Positions 9,396 to 18,617 of a DNA stretch of 40,809 bases are shown here, piece after piece. The notes beneath the pieces are model-generated. The model had not been told where the DNA came from, made no database searches, and saw only the letters and a list, made by a program, of their open reading frames with translations. Where the stretch lies: assembly GCA_030527165.1 (NCBI GenBank), contig JAUNBH010000008.1, forward strand, positions 1-40,809, read 5' to 3'. The DNA is from Clostridia bacterium. GTDB lineage: Bacteria > Bacillota > Clostridia > Christensenellales > CAG-138. The position numbers and the translations under genes were made by a program. The first letter of the stretch is position 1. Every line of letters starts with the position of its first letter.

Positions 9396-10109
9396 ATGAA
9401 AGCAACAACAGTCCTAATAGGCAATTTTGGTTCCGGCAAGTCCGAGCTGGCGCTAAACCTCGCCATGCGCTCCGTCCGCGGCGGCAGCAGCACGGTGCTG
9501 GTAGACCTTGACATCATCAACCCGTACTTCCGCTCCGCTGAGCGCAAGCATATGCTGGAACAAAACGGCGTCAAACTCATCTATCCGACATACGCCATGA
9601 CGGGAGTGGAATCACCCACCGTCCCGCCAGACGTCTACTCCGTGTTCATAGATGAGCATGAAACGGTGCTGTTCGATGTCGGCGGAGACCCATCAGGCGC
9701 CGTCGCACTGGGCCAGTTTAAGCGCAATTTTGACGAACTGGGGCAACTCCATGTGCTCTGCGTCGTCAACTGTATGCGCCCCTTCTCCGCTACGCTCGAA
9801 CAAAACCTCACCATGATGGCTCAGATCCAAACGCGCTGCAGGCTCGCGATTACCGGCATCGTCAACAACGCGAACCTCTCATATGAGACCACGCCCCAAG
9901 TCATTGCCGAGGGCTATTCCATGGTAGAGCGCATATCTCGTGAGACCGGCATACCGGTCGTAATGACTTCAGGGATGAAAGCTCCTCTCTCGGGCTTCGT
10001 CCGGCTTGCGCGCGAGCTTGAACTCGACCCCTCGTATATGGGCGAGACGTATGAAATCGAGCGCTATATGCGTCGCGACTGGGAGAGCTTCACCACACTC
10101 GGCATCTGA
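9396..10109 (+). CDS. P-loop ATPase next to the 2-oxoacid oxidoreductase
   Basis: 237 residues in the MinD/CobQ-like nucleotide-binding superfamily. Walker A is GNFGSGKS (9-16), VLVDLDIINPYFRSAE is the switch region with paired Asp, and LFDVGGDPSG is the Walker B-like block. There is no DNA-binding or cysteine-cluster domain. ATG 9396 follows GGGAGG. I recall similar proteins beside VorB-type oxidoreductases in clostridia; a role in assembly or regulation of the enzyme is inference only. A terminator separates it from the oxidoreductase operon. Confidence 0.7.
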   Translation: MKATTVLIGNFGSGKSELALNLAMRSVRGGSSTVLVDLDIINPYFRSAERKHMLEQNGVKLIYPTYAMTGVESPTVPPDVYSVFIDEHETVLFDVGGDPSGAVALGQFKRNFDELGQLHVLCVVNCMRPFSATLEQNLTMMAQIQTRCRLAITGIVNNANLSYETTPQVIAEGYSMVERISRETGIPVVMTSGMKAPLSGFVRLARELELDPSYMGETYEIERYMRRDWESFTTLGI

Positions 10110-13004: not shown

Positions 13005-13964
13005 ATGAAGTATATCAGGACATCGCTTATAGCATTGTGCATCGTCTGCTGCCTCGCGCTGTGCGCTTGCTCGCCGCAGCAGCCCGCCGATCCCAACGAT
13101 ATAGTGGACATCGGGTCGGACTTGATTATGTCCGCGCAGGAACTCGCCTCCTTTCTCGCCAATTCTACCGAGAGCTCCTGCGAACTGGGGGCAAACATTG
13201 AGATGTATCAGCAGATGCTGACGCTCAGCGCAGAGCGCGGGCATGTTACGATTAACGGAAACGGGCACGCCATCACCGGCGATGCGGACTGCATGCTCCG
13301 ACTCGACGATGGCGCAAGCATCACAATCAATGACGTTACGCTTTCTTGCGGTTCCGTATGCATAGGCGGGTTGGGAAGCGCCGTCATTTATGGCAATGAT
13401 CTCGTCATAGATTCCGTCAGCACTGGCATCTACCTGGATGGGGATCTTACCATCGGTGATAACAGTAATATATCCATTACCTCAAGCAACAGCGCCTGCA
13501 TCAATGCCTACTCGATACTCTTTAGCGCGAGCTCGCATGTTGAATGCACTTCCCTTGACGCGCTCCACACTATTAACGCGCATAAATCCGACATAACGAT
13601 AGACCAGAACGCCGCCGTGCGCTGCTCCGGCATGTCGTACAGCGTATTGTACTGTGAACGCACGCTCGTCATGCGCGACGGTTCATCGCTTAGCACTGTA
13701 AACGGCGGCATATATCACGGCGCGGAGATTGGCAAGCTCTCCGTTGACGGCGTCGTTACCATAAACGCAACCGGAGGCGAACAGGGCGTCGGAGTGTTCC
13801 TATTTGAGCTTCGCGAACACCTGTATGTTGTGGGAACCTGTGAACCCGCATATCGCTACGACCTCGGCAGAGGAAGCATAACTTTTGTGGAGAGCGCGGC
13901 GGACATCCCCACCCCAACGCCGAGTGCGTCTTTAGACGCAACCCCCGCGGCCACGCCGGGCTGA
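13005..13964 (+). CDS. Lipoprotein with beta-helix-like repeats
   Basis: 319 residues. The signal peptide ends in the lipobox LCAC (Cys at about residue 23), predicting a lipid-anchored surface protein. The body has repeating short hydrophobic strands with Asn/Gly/Ser turns (for example HVTINGNGHAITGD, ASITINDVTLSCG), the look of a right-handed parallel beta-helix. The tail is a Pro/Thr-rich stretch (PTPTPSASLDATPAATPG). No catalytic residues are recognisable; carbohydrate binding is possible but unproven. ATG 13005 follows TTGGAG. TATAAT at 12974-12979 may be a -10 box, but no good -35 is present. The next gene begins seven bases after the stop, so the two are probably co-expressed. Confidence 0.75.
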   Translation: MKYIRTSLIALCIVCCLALCACSPQQPADPNDIVDIGSDLIMSAQELASFLANSTESSCELGANIEMYQQMLTLSAERGHVTINGNGHAITGDADCMLRLDDGASITINDVTLSCGSVCIGGLGSAVIYGNDLVIDSVSTGIYLDGDLTIGDNSNISITSSNSACINAYSILFSASSHVECTSLDALHTINAHKSDITIDQNAAVRCSGMSYSVLYCERTLVMRDGSSLSTVNGGIYHGAEIGKLSVDGVVTINATGGEQGVGVFLFELREHLYVVGTCEPAYRYDLGRGSITFVESAADIPTPTPSASLDATPAATPG

Positions 13965-13971
13965 TACTGCT

Positions 13972-14565
13972 ATGAAACTCGATGCCAGACATAATACGGT
14001 CAAGTATACCGGACTGCGGCGAAACAGGGTATCAAATACGGGACCCGTGGCGCGCTTTGGCGTTGTCGTACGCGATCGCGGCGCGCGAATGCACAGGTTT
14101 GCCAAGTACAGCGGCTCTGCCATTAAGCTCATCGAGGATGCGCCCCGCTTCTCGCGATATGCCTCAAAGAGGCAGATAGCGCGCCGCCCGGTTAGCGCGC
14201 CGCGCCTTACAAGGTTTCCTGACATCCGGGATACTGCTCCCGACCCGTCCGTAGGCGCAACTGCAAATCTCAATCGTTTCGCGCCCACGGGTTCAACGGC
14301 CGAGGCTACGCGCAGCCGTTCGGCGCTGCCTCGCATCTCCAAGTATGCGCCACCCGCTGTTGAGACGCCGCCGGCGAAGAAAATACCGCGTTCAGCACGC
14401 TTTACGGAGACCTCGCTTCGCGCTACACAGCGCAGCCAGTACGTCGTCTCAAGGAAAATTGACATACCGTTTAAGCGAATCGCCGCATATGCGCTGCTCG
14501 CTGTGGTATTGGGTGCGGTGGGTTACGTTATCTACTTCATACTTACCGGCGACCCGACGCTTTAG
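13972..14565 (+). CDS. Unrecognised Arg-rich repeat protein with C-terminal membrane anchor
   Basis: 197 residues; family not recognised. A strongly basic region of about 165 residues is followed by one C-terminal hydrophobic helix (about 168-191) and six residues, so it looks tail-anchored with most of the protein in the cytoplasm. A short motif recurs with variation: RFAKYSG (42-48), RFSRYAS (59-65), RLTRFPD (78-84), NRFAP (101-105), RISKYAP (121-127) and ARFTE (142-146), roughly [RN]-[FIL]-x-[RK]-[YF]-[ASP] every 16-24 residues. The segments between are Pro/Ala-rich and probably disordered. It is seven bases behind the lipoprotein gene and faces priA head-on. Repetitive basic tails can mean binding to nucleic acid, acidic polymer or membrane; none is shown. 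Confidence 0.6.
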   Translation: MKLDARHNTVKYTGLRRNRVSNTGPVARFGVVVRDRGARMHRFAKYSGSAIKLIEDAPRFSRYASKRQIARRPVSAPRLTRFPDIRDTAPDPSVGATANLNRFAPTGSTAEATRSRSALPRISKYAPPAVETPPAKKIPRSARFTETSLRATQRSQYVVSRKIDIPFKRIAAYALLAVVLGAVGYVIYFILTGDPTL

Positions 14566-14576
14566 CCGCTACCGGT

Positions 14577-16838
14577 TTAGAACATATCTCCGGGGTTTAT
14601 CTCAGGATGCAGCGCGCACTCTCCCCCGTGCTCCGCGTGATACCTGTATATTGCGTCGAGTATCAGCGGGAGGTTTTTTGTGCGCGCAAAGCGAAGCAGC
14701 ACCTGATACCTGTACGCGTTCTGCTTTCTGCGAACCGGAGCCGCAGCAGCCTCTACCATGAGAATCTCGCCTTGGTTGGCCCCGCGTCCGTTGAGCTGCG
14801 CCTCTATCGCCGCCGACAGGCCGTCGGCGTACTCGCGCGCGCTAGCTGAAGCGCGCTCCTCATCCTCCGACACGAACAGTATCCGGGCAAACAATGAGAA
14901 CGGCGGGAACAGCGCCTTCCTTCGCTGTGCTATCTCATACGTGTAAAACCCCTTGAAATCGTGAGCTGACGCGAACCTGATCGCCTCGTGCTCGGGCGTG
15001 TATGTCTGCACTATTACCCTGCCCCGTTTGGCTTGCCTCCCCGCCCTGCCCGCAACCTGCGTGAGCAACTGAAATGTGCGCTCGCAGCTCCTGTAATCCG
15101 GAATATGCAGCATTGCGTCAGCCGCCACGACGCCAACCAATGTGACGTTCGGTATGTCCAAACCCTTTGCTATCATCTGGGTGCCGATTAAAACCTGCGC
15201 TTCGCCGCGCTCGAAGGCTGATAGTATCCGCTGGTGCGCATCCTTCGTTCCCGTGGTATCCATGTCCATGCGCAGCGCGGAGCACTCTGGAAACAACTCG
15301 TGCAGCTGGTTCTCCACCTGCTGCGTTCCTACGCCGAAGTACTTTATGAAGGCCGAGCCGCATTCCGGGCATTTTGTCGGCAGGGCACGCCTCGCACCGC
15401 AATAGTGACACATCAGTGCATTGTTCGCGCTGTGATACGTCATGGATACGTCGCAGTTATCGCATTCAAACACATGGCCGCACATCCTGCACGACACAAA
15501 AGTCGAGTAGCCCCTTCTGTTGATGAAGAGTATCGCCTGCTCGCCGTTTGCCATGCACTCACCCAGCGCCTGTTTGAGCTGGGACGAGAATACGCCGGTA
15601 TTTCCCGCCATGAACTCCGCGCGCATGTCGATAACTTCCACTGCCGGCATAGGTATGCTGCTTACGCGTTCATTGAGCTCCAACAGCCCATATCTGCCCT
15701 TGACCGCCTTGAGATAGTCACCCAATGACGGCGTTGCGCTGCCCAGCAGGAGCGCGGCGCCATTGAGCTTGCAGCGCTTGATCGCAACCTCTATGGCATT
15801 ATAACGCGGCGAGCTCTCGGATTGATACGACGCCTCGTGTTCCTCGTCAATCACAATCAGCCGCAACTGTGACAAGGGCGCGAATACTGCGCTCCGCGCA
15901 CCTACCACCACATCAACCATGCCCAGTCGTATGCGCCGCCACTCGTCATAGCGCTCACCGGCGCTTAACCTGCTGTGCAACACGGCTATGCGGTCGCCGA
16001 AGCGCCCCTTGAAGCGGCTCACCGTCTGCGGCGTAAGCGATATTTCAGGTACGAGCACTATTGCGCTTCCCCCGCGCTCGAGCGCATACGCTATGGAGCG
16101 CATATATACTTCCGTCTTGCCGCTGCCGGTTACTCCGTGCAGCAAGAACACGCCCTCGCGCGCGTCTATTCCGCCGCATACCGCTTCAAAAGCTGCGCGC
16201 TGCGCCCCGGTCAGCTCGGGTGCTTCCGCGGCACTGCCGCGCTCATATGCCGGCACTCTGAATTCCTCGCGCCCGGTCTCCGTGAGAATGCCCTTGGCTA
16301 CGAGCGCCTTGACGGCGCTTTGCGAGCCCGGTATGCGCTTGGATATATCCGCGGCTGACATTTCTCGCTGGACGAGCATGAGCTCAAACACCTCTCCCTG
16401 CAACCGCGAGCGGTATCTGCCGTCCTTCATCGTCAACGCGGCTCTCATCTCATCGTGCGGGCGGCATTCGCACAGTGCATAGAGCTTTACTACCTTCTCG
16501 CTTATACGCCCGCGCCTGAGCTGAGCGGGTATCATCAGGCGCAATGCGTCAACATACAGGCACCTGTATACATTTGCCATCCAACGCGCGAGCACGAGTT
16601 GATCCGGAAGCATTACGGTATACGGCTCCAGGGTCTTGGTCACAGTCTTGAGTTGCTTTAACCCCTCGGGCGCATCGCTATTAACGCTGACGACAAAGCC
16701 CTCCGTCGAACGGTTGGACGCGCCAAAAGGAACCGACACCCTGTGTCCCGGCTCTACTTGCATATTGTCGGGAATCCGATAGCAGAACACCCTGTCGACA
16801 TTCGTATTCCCGATGTCAACTATAACACTTGCGTACAT
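14577..16838 (-). CDS. priA: Primosomal protein N' (PriA helicase)
   Basis: 753 residues, full length. PriA recognises stalled or repaired forks and reloads the replicative helicase. Visible: N-terminal DNA-binding domain (VDIGNTNVDRVFCYRIP), Walker A GVTGSGKTEVYMR, DEEH box (VIDEEHEASYQSE), and the zinc-binding cysteine cluster CRMCGHVFECDNCD, CHYCGARR and CPECGSAF inserted between helicase motifs, then GTQMIAKGLDIPNVTLVGV and QVAGRAGR. Last gene of the minus-strand run, 36 bases after rpoZ. In many Firmicutes coaBC lies between rpoZ and priA; it is missing here. Confidence 0.97.
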   Translation of the reverse strand: MYASVIVDIGNTNVDRVFCYRIPDNMQVEPGHRVSVPFGASNRSTEGFVVSVNSDAPEGLKQLKTVTKTLEPYTVMLPDQLVLARWMANVYRCLYVDALRLMIPAQLRRGRISEKVVKLYALCECRPHDEMRAALTMKDGRYRSRLQGEVFELMLVQREMSAADISKRIPGSQSAVKALVAKGILTETGREEFRVPAYERGSAAEAPELTGAQRAAFEAVCGGIDAREGVFLLHGVTGSGKTEVYMRSIAYALERGGSAIVLVPEISLTPQTVSRFKGRFGDRIAVLHSRLSAGERYDEWRRIRLGMVDVVVGARSAVFAPLSQLRLIVIDEEHEASYQSESSPRYNAIEVAIKRCKLNGAALLLGSATPSLGDYLKAVKGRYGLLELNERVSSIPMPAVEVIDMRAEFMAGNTGVFSSQLKQALGECMANGEQAILFINRRGYSTFVSCRMCGHVFECDNCDVSMTYHSANNALMCHYCGARRALPTKCPECGSAFIKYFGVGTQQVENQLHELFPECSALRMDMDTTGTKDAHQRILSAFERGEAQVLIGTQMIAKGLDIPNVTLVGVVAADAMLHIPDYRSCERTFQLLTQVAGRAGRQAKRGRVIVQTYTPEHEAIRFASAHDFKGFYTYEIAQRRKALFPPFSLFARILFVSEDEERASASAREYADGLSAAIEAQLNGRGANQGEILMVEAAAAPVRRKQNAYRYQVLLRFARTKNLPLILDAIYRYHAEHGGECALHPEINPGDMF

Positions 16839-16874
16839 GGAAAAAACAGCGCGGGGTTAACCCGCGCCTACCCT

Positions 16875-17093
16875 TCAAAACGTAAAACCGCTTGAGATTG
16901 GTGCGCGACGGCCCTTGACAATGTGTAGTTTATCCTCGTATAGCTCGTTTACAGCCCGCGAAACCGGCTTCTCATTTGCAGCTACCGCCTGAGCTTCCAT
17001 GAGCTGCCGCGCCCGCTTTGAGACCGCGGTTACCAGCGCGTATCTGCACTCTGCAATGCCTAAGAGTTTATCAATCGGTGGGTAGTTTATCAT
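16875..17093 (-). CDS. rpoZ: RNA polymerase omega subunit
   Basis: 72 residues, matching the usual Firmicutes omega length. The start MINYPPIDKLLG and the block RYALVTAVSKRARQL are the family signature, followed by KPVSRAVNELYEDKL. Omega helps assemble and stabilise core RNA polymerase. The start lies inside the end of gmk (23-base overlap), so translation is coupled; the only GAGG sits directly against the ATG. Confidence 0.93.
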   Translation of the reverse strand: MINYPPIDKLLGIAECRYALVTAVSKRARQLMEAQAVAANEKPVSRAVNELYEDKLHIVKGRRAPISSGFTF

Positions 17094-17733
17094 CCTCGTT
17101 CAACTCCTCTTCATAATGCTTTATTAGTTCGCCGTTGCGAGAGACGCGACACTTTTCCGCGTCAACAATGTGGCACACGGCGTTAACCGCCTTATCTATG
17201 ACGTCGTTTACTACTACATAATCGTACTGCGGCAAGAACCGCATCTCGCCAAAAGCCTCCCTGTATCGACGCAGTATGGCGCTTTCGTTCTCGGTTCCGC
17301 GCCCATACAGCCTGGTCATGATGTCGCTCATAGTCGGCGGGGCTATAAATATGCACACGGAATCCGGATACGCGGCTTTGACCTTCATAGCGCCGTTGAC
17401 GTCTATCTCAAGCACGATATCGTTTCCGTGGTCGAGCTCCTCCTCTACAAATGCCCGCGGCGTTCCGTAGTAATTGAGCCCAAACACCTGTATATACTCC
17501 AAAAACTCGTCCGCCTCTATCATACGGCGAAACTCATCCTGGGTCTTGAAAAAGTAGTTTACTCCCTCTATCTCCTGAGGCCGCTTCGCACGGGTCGTGG
17601 CGGAAACGGAGAGCTTGGCGCCGGGGCTGCGCTCCAAAAACGCCTTGGTAACAGTACCCTTACCTACGCCCGAAGGCCCCGATATGACGATTAACAGACC
17701 TCGTCTTGAACGACTGACCAATTCTTCACACAC
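17071..17733 (-). CDS. gmk: Guanylate kinase
   Basis: 220 residues. It phosphorylates GMP to GDP with ATP. Walker A is GPSGVGKGT (19-27), followed by SVSATTRAKRPQEIEGVNYFF, the GMP-binding region of the family, and the lid segment. The longest frame uses GTG 17733; an in-frame TTG at 17721 is an alternative start, and the sequence does not decide. It begins two bases after yicC and overlaps rpoZ. Confidence 0.95.
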   Translation of the reverse strand: MCEELVSRSRRGLLIVISGPSGVGKGTVTKAFLERSPGAKLSVSATTRAKRPQEIEGVNYFFKTQDEFRRMIEADEFLEYIQVFGLNYYGTPRAFVEEELDHGNDIVLEIDVNGAMKVKAAYPDSVCIFIAPPTMSDIMTRLYGRGTENESAILRRYREAFGEMRFLPQYDYVVVNDVIDKAVNAVCHIVDAEKCRVSRNGELIKHYEEELNEDDKLPTD

Positions 17734-17735
17734 CC

Positions 17736-18617
17736 CTATTCTATATTCTGAATCTGCTCCCTGATCTTCTCCAACACTGCTTTGCCGGATACGACGCAGT
17801 CCGTAACGAGCGCATCATTCGCCTTAGATCCGATCGTATTGAACTCGCGGTTGAGCTCCTGCGTATAGAACTCGAACGTCCTGCCAACCGCTCCGTCCGT
17901 GCAGAGCAGCGAGCGAAGCTTCTCAATGTGGCTCGCAATTCGCACGAGCTCCTCGTTTATGCTGGCTCTGTCGGCAAATAAAGCTACTTCCATGGCAAGC
18001 CTGCCCTCGTCTATGATTGCGCTGCCGTCGAGATGCGCGGCAATCCGCTCATGCAGCTTCCTCGCGTACTCCTCAACCACAACGGGTTCCCTGTCCTCAA
18101 TGCGCTTCGCAAGGTCTTCGATTGCGTCCAGGCAATCGCAAAACGACTTCCGCAGCCGTTCACCTTCGTTCCTGCGCGAGGCAACCAACTGTTCGAGCGC
18201 AGCGTCCACAGCCTCCGACATCAATGCCAAAATCGCCTCTCTGTCGTCTTCAGCTTCTTCCAAAGCAGTCGCGTTCGGAAGGCGCAGCAGACTCAAAGCG
18301 TCCAAGTCGCACGCTACGCCGTATTTATCGGCAATCGCGCGGGCCGCGCCTATATAGGCGGCTACCACCAGTTCATCTACGGCAAGCCGCCTGGCATCCT
18401 CTCTGTTGTTGACGTACGACACATAGACGTCTACATGCCCTCTGGAGAGCTTAAGCCCTATGCGCTTGCGCAATGTGTCCTCACAGAATGAAATAGACTT
18501 TGACATGCGGTATGACAAATCGAGATACCGATGATTCACGCTCTTTAGTTCTATTTCCACTCTGCGCCCGTCGTGCTCTACGGCCGCCCGTCCGTAGCCC
18601 GTCATGCTCGAAATCAT
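17736..18617 (-). CDS. yicC: YicC-family endoribonuclease
   Basis: 293 residues, usual length for the family. The N-terminus SMTGYGRA and the block ELKSVNHRYLDLSYRM are the YicC_N signature; the C-terminus (FYTQELNREFNTIGSKAND) is the DUF1732 block. Family members cleave RNA, and in E. coli YicC targets the small RNA RyhB. In Bacillus relatives (YloC) the gene is followed by remA then gmk; remA is absent here. Confidence 0.93.
   Translation of the reverse strand: MISSMTGYGRAAVEHDGRRVEIELKSVNHRYLDLSYRMSKSISFCEDTLRKRIGLKLSRGHVDVYVSYVNNREDARRLAVDELVVAAYIGAARAIADKYGVACDLDALSLLRLPNATALEEAEDDREAILALMSEAVDAALEQLVASRRNEGERLRKSFCDCLDAIEDLAKRIEDREPVVVEEYARKLHERIAAHLDGSAIIDEGRLAMEVALFADRASINEELVRIASHIEKLRSLLCTDGAVGRTFEFYTQELNREFNTIGSKANDALVTDCVVSGKAVLEKIREQIQNIE

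Follow-up and report, generated by a model that had tools for sequence, protein, structure and literature searches.

A tail-anchored protein with a periodic Arg-Phe motif array beside a predicted surface lipoprotein in a lineage of Clostridia

What might a strongly basic protein do that belongs to no described family, repeats a short arginine-aromatic motif along its length and ends in a single membrane helix? Such a protein is encoded in the window analyzed here (the whole 40,809-nucleotide stretch of DNA), directly behind the gene of a predicted lipoprotein. The features of the locus are as follows.

13008 to 13964, plus strand: beta-solenoid surface lipoprotein (predicted), from a weak Pectate_lyase_5 match, homologues, a model and a pairing kept in the sister species
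13972 to 14565, plus strand: tail-anchored Arg-Phe repeat protein of 197 amino acids; intact open reading frame with a sister-species orthologue, matching no family
14077 to 14433, plus strand: six degenerate repeats of about 20 residues (residues 36-154), from the motif chain and conservation against the orthologue; repeat cores RF42, RY62, RF81, RF102, KY124 and RF143
14470 to 14547, plus strand: C-terminal membrane helix (residues 167-192), from the hydropathy peak and a single-sequence model

The lipoprotein gene is co-oriented and upstream, with its stop 7 bases before the repeat gene (6 bases in the sister species). On the other side, 11 bases separate the stop of the repeat gene from the convergent end of priA (14577-16838).

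The first-pass annotation of this DNA had described the open reading frame, the positive charge and a single C-terminal membrane helix, and all three hold. Residues 1-170 contain 27 Arg, 10 Lys and 11 acidic residues, giving a net charge of +26; that of the orthologue is +51. The hydropathy profile shows one hydrophobic helix, at the C-terminus, with a peak of 2.37 at residues 174-192, followed by a tail of about 5 residues predicted to lie outside. With one helix at the extreme C-terminus and a very basic N-terminal side, the predicted topology is that of a tail-anchored protein, and by the positive-inside rule the N-terminal array would be cytoplasmic. In an AlphaFold2 single-sequence model, the helix at 167-192 has a pLDDT of about 77-96 and the rest of the protein stays below 60, a low confidence that, coming from one sequence, agrees with disorder and is not proof of it. 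Charge-hydropathy analysis also classifies the protein outside its anchor as unstructured. The array region is thus probably disordered, consistent with the layout suggested earlier of a cationic, disordered motif region leading into an anchor.

The repeats were examined with a strict and a relaxed form of the motif. The strict form, [RN]-[FIL]-x-[RK]-[YF]-[ASP], had been reported to occur at least six times; we count five copies, starting at residues 42, 59, 78, 99 and 121, where shuffling predicts 0.02 and none of 20,000 shuffles reached five. A count of six does apply to the relaxed core [RK]-[FY]. Of its 10 copies, where 2.6 are expected (p = 5e-5), six share one register (residues 42, 62, 81, 102, 124 and 143) with steps of 19-22 residues, and an extra RF at residue 28 is out of phase with them. 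A chain of six at 18-22 residue steps arose in 0 of 20,000 full shuffles and in 0.24% of dipeptide-preserving shuffles (3.7% with any spacing allowed), and the chain of ten in the orthologue was reached in no shuffle. Among 534 open reading frames of the same genome (567 kb, made up of the window and 0.53 Mb of other stretches), the next longest [RK]-[FY] chain is three. When the units of both species were pooled as disjoint rows, placed in register only after inspection, they gave the consensus [PA]-[RN]-hydrophobic-x-[RK]-[FY]-[SAP]-x-x-[GS], with enrichment at flanking positions -4 (P/A), -3 (R/N), -2 (hydrophobic), +2 and +5. No tandem repeat was found in the repeat gene at the DNA level and the codons of the cores vary between units, which argues that the periodicity is old and maintained. 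Taken as a property of the sequence, the periodicity is well supported.

The protein had been called an orphan, a description that does not survive comparison with the sister species. The genome of that species (G001) encodes an orthologue of 279 amino acids with 33% identity (E = 2.9e-14), and the lipoprotein neighbor is conserved with it. Because a sister genome of the genus carries this divergent, longer orthologue, the repeat frame is a real gene. The orthologue array has 10 cores, against six here, at steps of 19-22 residues, and in both proteins the sequence D-[PS]-T-L comes after the terminal membrane helix. As G001 is the only other genome of the genus available, conservation is read from one comparison of two sequences. 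The annotation had proposed checking whether the motif is kept while the linkers drift, and the answer with this one orthologue is positive: all 12 aligned core residues score positive in substitution against 50% of linker residues (Fisher p = 0.0004), in an alignment that can itself favor RF-to-RF matching. The stretches read from the two genomes differ by 15 points in GC (55.5% here, 40.7% in G001). Arg nevertheless occupies 9 of the 10 cores of the G001 orthologue, against 26 Arg to 28 Lys elsewhere in that protein (p = 0.015). Since the low-GC orthologue holds Arg in its cores and uses Lys freely elsewhere, Arg itself, beyond mere positive charge, appears to be under selection. Identity between the two species is 33% for the repeat protein, 37% for the lipoprotein, 59% for PriA and 65% for a second propeller paralogue; by this measure, the lipoprotein-repeat pair evolves faster than housekeeping genes.

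Further relatives were sought at several levels. The repeat protein matched no family in Pfam, NCBIfam, PHROGs, PADLOC or PDB sequences, in line with the earlier remark that no described family with this layout was known; the only sub-threshold matches were 16 residues of SecE (E = 0.25) and one PDB chain (E = 0.53). Neither the repeat protein nor the lipoprotein gave a match in scans of the genome contigs. Profile searches of 103 family, 396 order and 391 class genomes, sets that overlap, returned weak matches and no relative besides the two genus members. On inspection, the order-level matches were single membrane helices in some cases and antisense or shadow frames of a transporter in others, and a match in G069 (E = 1e-4) was a short helix protein, rich in Arg and Lys, that lacks the R-F motif. 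A profile of the repeats only, searched in the family, recovered the two genus members, and every other match had an E-value of 0.006 or higher. We found no description of such a repeat protein in the literature. As far as these searches reach, the protein is lineage-restricted and without a described family. Other genera could still encode proteins of this layout that the searches missed, since even the orthologues of the two sister species share just 33% identity; the role of the protein is either dispensable at the family level or performed elsewhere by proteins that went undetected.

The neighboring lipoprotein offers a second view of the locus. Its single-sequence model is a beta-solenoid whose best structural matches, SRRP adhesins of L. 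reuteri, are modest (E = 7e-4, TM-score about 0.4). At E <= 0.001, 11 of the family's 26 genera have a homologue of it; ten of these matches span the full length, and the eleventh is a weak one of 88 residues. In G001, the pair is flanked by a ppiB-like gene on one side and an exonuclease-like gene on the other (names from sequence), and priA lies on a different contig, preceded by gmk and rpoZ. Because the genome positions in the two species are unrelated, the pair has stayed together through changed surroundings. The two genes are probably co-transcribed, and their products may be linked in function. With the lipoprotein outside and the array on the cytoplasmic side by the positive-inside rule, the two could touch only near the membrane.

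Several other features were seen along the way. At 16838-17736, the window lacks the coaBC that the sister species has between rpoZ and priA, and it likewise lacks the RemA-like gene that the sister species has between yicC and gmk (L162; names partly read from sequence). A 237-residue protein with weak P-loop/ParA-like matches (9396-10109, plus strand) is encoded between genes for an FAD-dependent protein and a 2-oxoacid:ferredoxin oxidoreductase. The lipoprotein itself belongs to a fast-evolving beta-solenoid family (window 13008-13964, loci L004-L023) found in many genera of the family, often with a membrane-anchored BamB/PQQ-like beta-propeller, a pair for which we found no published description.

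We tentatively favor a reading, to which we give slightly less than an even chance, in which the protein ties a cytoplasmic partner to the membrane through a tail-anchored, multivalent array of Arg-Phe motifs. Its cytoplasmic part would be an unstructured, strongly basic chain of tandem units of about 20 residues, each carrying one short linear motif, [PA]-[RN]-hydrophobic-x-[RK]-[FY]-[SAP]. Many weak Arg-Phe contacts would together keep the partner against the cytoplasmic side of the membrane, and the same cells would carry the neighboring beta-solenoid lipoprotein on their exterior. The surface of the putative partner may be acidic or able to bind aromatics; a protein assembly would fit, a nucleic acid less well. 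This reading draws on cores that are conserved, evenly spaced and biased toward Arg, set in a free chain, as a multivalent short-linear-motif tether would have them, and the features of such scaffolds are present: several motif copies, a predicted-unstructured chain, a motif conserved in one orthologue, and free linkers. Neither the sequence nor the gene neighborhood yielded a candidate partner. The annotation had suggested that the array may bind a polymer and fix it to the membrane. A wall glycan is an unlikely target, because the array is predicted to be cytoplasmic by the positive-inside rule. Family searches usually miss fast-evolving disordered proteins, and in this familyless protein the regular spacing, together with Arg held against genome base composition, is direct evidence of function.

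The array might instead adsorb to the membrane surface, its Arg-Phe motifs inserting in the anionic inner leaflet and the chain zipping along it, altering local charge or curvature without a specific partner. The high charge of both orthologues, the Phe beside Arg and the tethering next to the membrane are all compatible with this, and a polycationic chain held close to an anionic membrane might do no more than rest on its surface. MARCKS-type basic-aromatic segments adsorb to membranes in this manner. However, the motifs are isolated at 20-residue steps and not clustered, and positions -4 to +2 are constrained, with Arg over Lys; a purely electrostatic mode needs neither constraint. We regard adsorption as unlikely, at about one chance in five.

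Somewhat less probable again is a membrane-tethered nucleic-acid binder that keeps DNA or RNA at the membrane. The array is Arg-rich, predicted to be disordered and net positive, and it prefers Arg over Lys, as such a binder might. Yet the protein matches no nucleic-acid-binding family, and the conserved neighborhood contains no nucleoid or RNA gene, its sole constant member being the exported lipoprotein.

The gene slot behind the lipoprotein raises a further alternative. In five other genera (g7, g12, g14, g21 and g26), the gene that follows the lipoprotein encodes a membrane-anchored BamB/PQQ-like beta-propeller with a short basic tail, and in g17 and g19 the slot holds a membrane protein that reads as peptidase-like from sequence. 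Genus g4 has in this slot (L164:2354-2665, G004, minus strand) a protein of 103 residues consisting of a basic tail, a helix and a Pro/Thr linker, without the propeller, which looks as if its beta-propeller domain were lost. In the lipoprotein tree, the genus studied here (g1) and g4 fall within the propeller-paired clade with support of 100/99; the inner order of the clade is unresolved, and both g1 lipoproteins and that of g4 lie on long branches. A propeller is encoded at another locus in both g1 genomes, and the one in G000 is 49% identical to the second paralogue of G014 against 35% to the lipoprotein-linked propeller. The repeat protein thus holds the slot of the lipoprotein-linked propeller, which seems to have been lost from this genus.

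The repeat protein could accordingly be a remnant anchor of little function, descended from such a propeller protein after loss of the external domain and drift and expansion of the basic tail. The shared slot, the well-supported clade, the propeller-less g4 protein and the long branches of the three lipoproteins speak for this. In both kinds of protein a basic cytoplasmic tail leads into a single membrane helix. The propeller proteins differ in a tail of only about 15-25 residues and a large external propeller, and homology of the anchors is not demonstrable: a propeller-anchor profile scored the repeat protein at 11.5 bits, below an unrelated basic-helix segment at 12.9, and the orthologue at 3.6. 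Drift, moreover, would not favor cores over linkers or hold a 20-residue period in both species. We consider a remnant about as improbable as a nucleic-acid binder.

Finally, a chance open frame, which might be entertained given an overlapping antisense frame of 177 amino acids (13932-14465, minus strand), no visible Shine-Dalgarno sequence and an undistinctive codon-position base composition, is refuted by an orthologue with the same frame and layout in the same place behind the lipoprotein at a GC content 15 points apart, and has almost no probability left; the antisense frame is itself probably fortuitous, because no antisense frame in the orthologue reaches 80 amino acids.

A bolder version of the tethering reading, which we hold to be improbable, would make the protein a membrane organizer of this lineage, its array recruiting or condensing a specific cytoplasmic assembly beneath the lipoprotein after replacing the propeller in the pair.

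Known multivalent scaffolds offer points of comparison for the proposed tether. EPYC1 of the Chlamydomonas pyrenoid is a multivalent protein with a repeated short motif whose partner is Rubisco, and RBMP1 and RBMP2 are transmembrane Rubisco-binding proteins with the motif and with a proposed role in linking the Rubisco matrix to membranes (PMC10473226). The repeat protein resembles all three in its repeated short motif and proposed multivalency, and RBMP1 and RBMP2 also in being in the membrane; they differ in belonging to a eukaryotic chloroplast, in having an established Rubisco partner, and in showing no sequence relation to the repeat protein. In bacteria, the N-terminal domain of CsoS2 from alpha-carboxysomes is a disordered scaffold whose Arg-rich repeats bind one enzyme multivalently (PMC12918739). 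Like the repeat protein, CsoS2 is bacterial, with Arg-rich repeats in a disordered chain (predicted, in the repeat protein); in contrast, it is soluble, has an R..RR..GK repeat pattern and acts inside a shell, and the repeat protein has no carboxysome link or sequence relation to it. If a partner is found, the repeat protein would extend the multivalent-motif scaffolds, described chiefly in carboxysomes and pyrenoids, to a membrane-tethered bacterial case.
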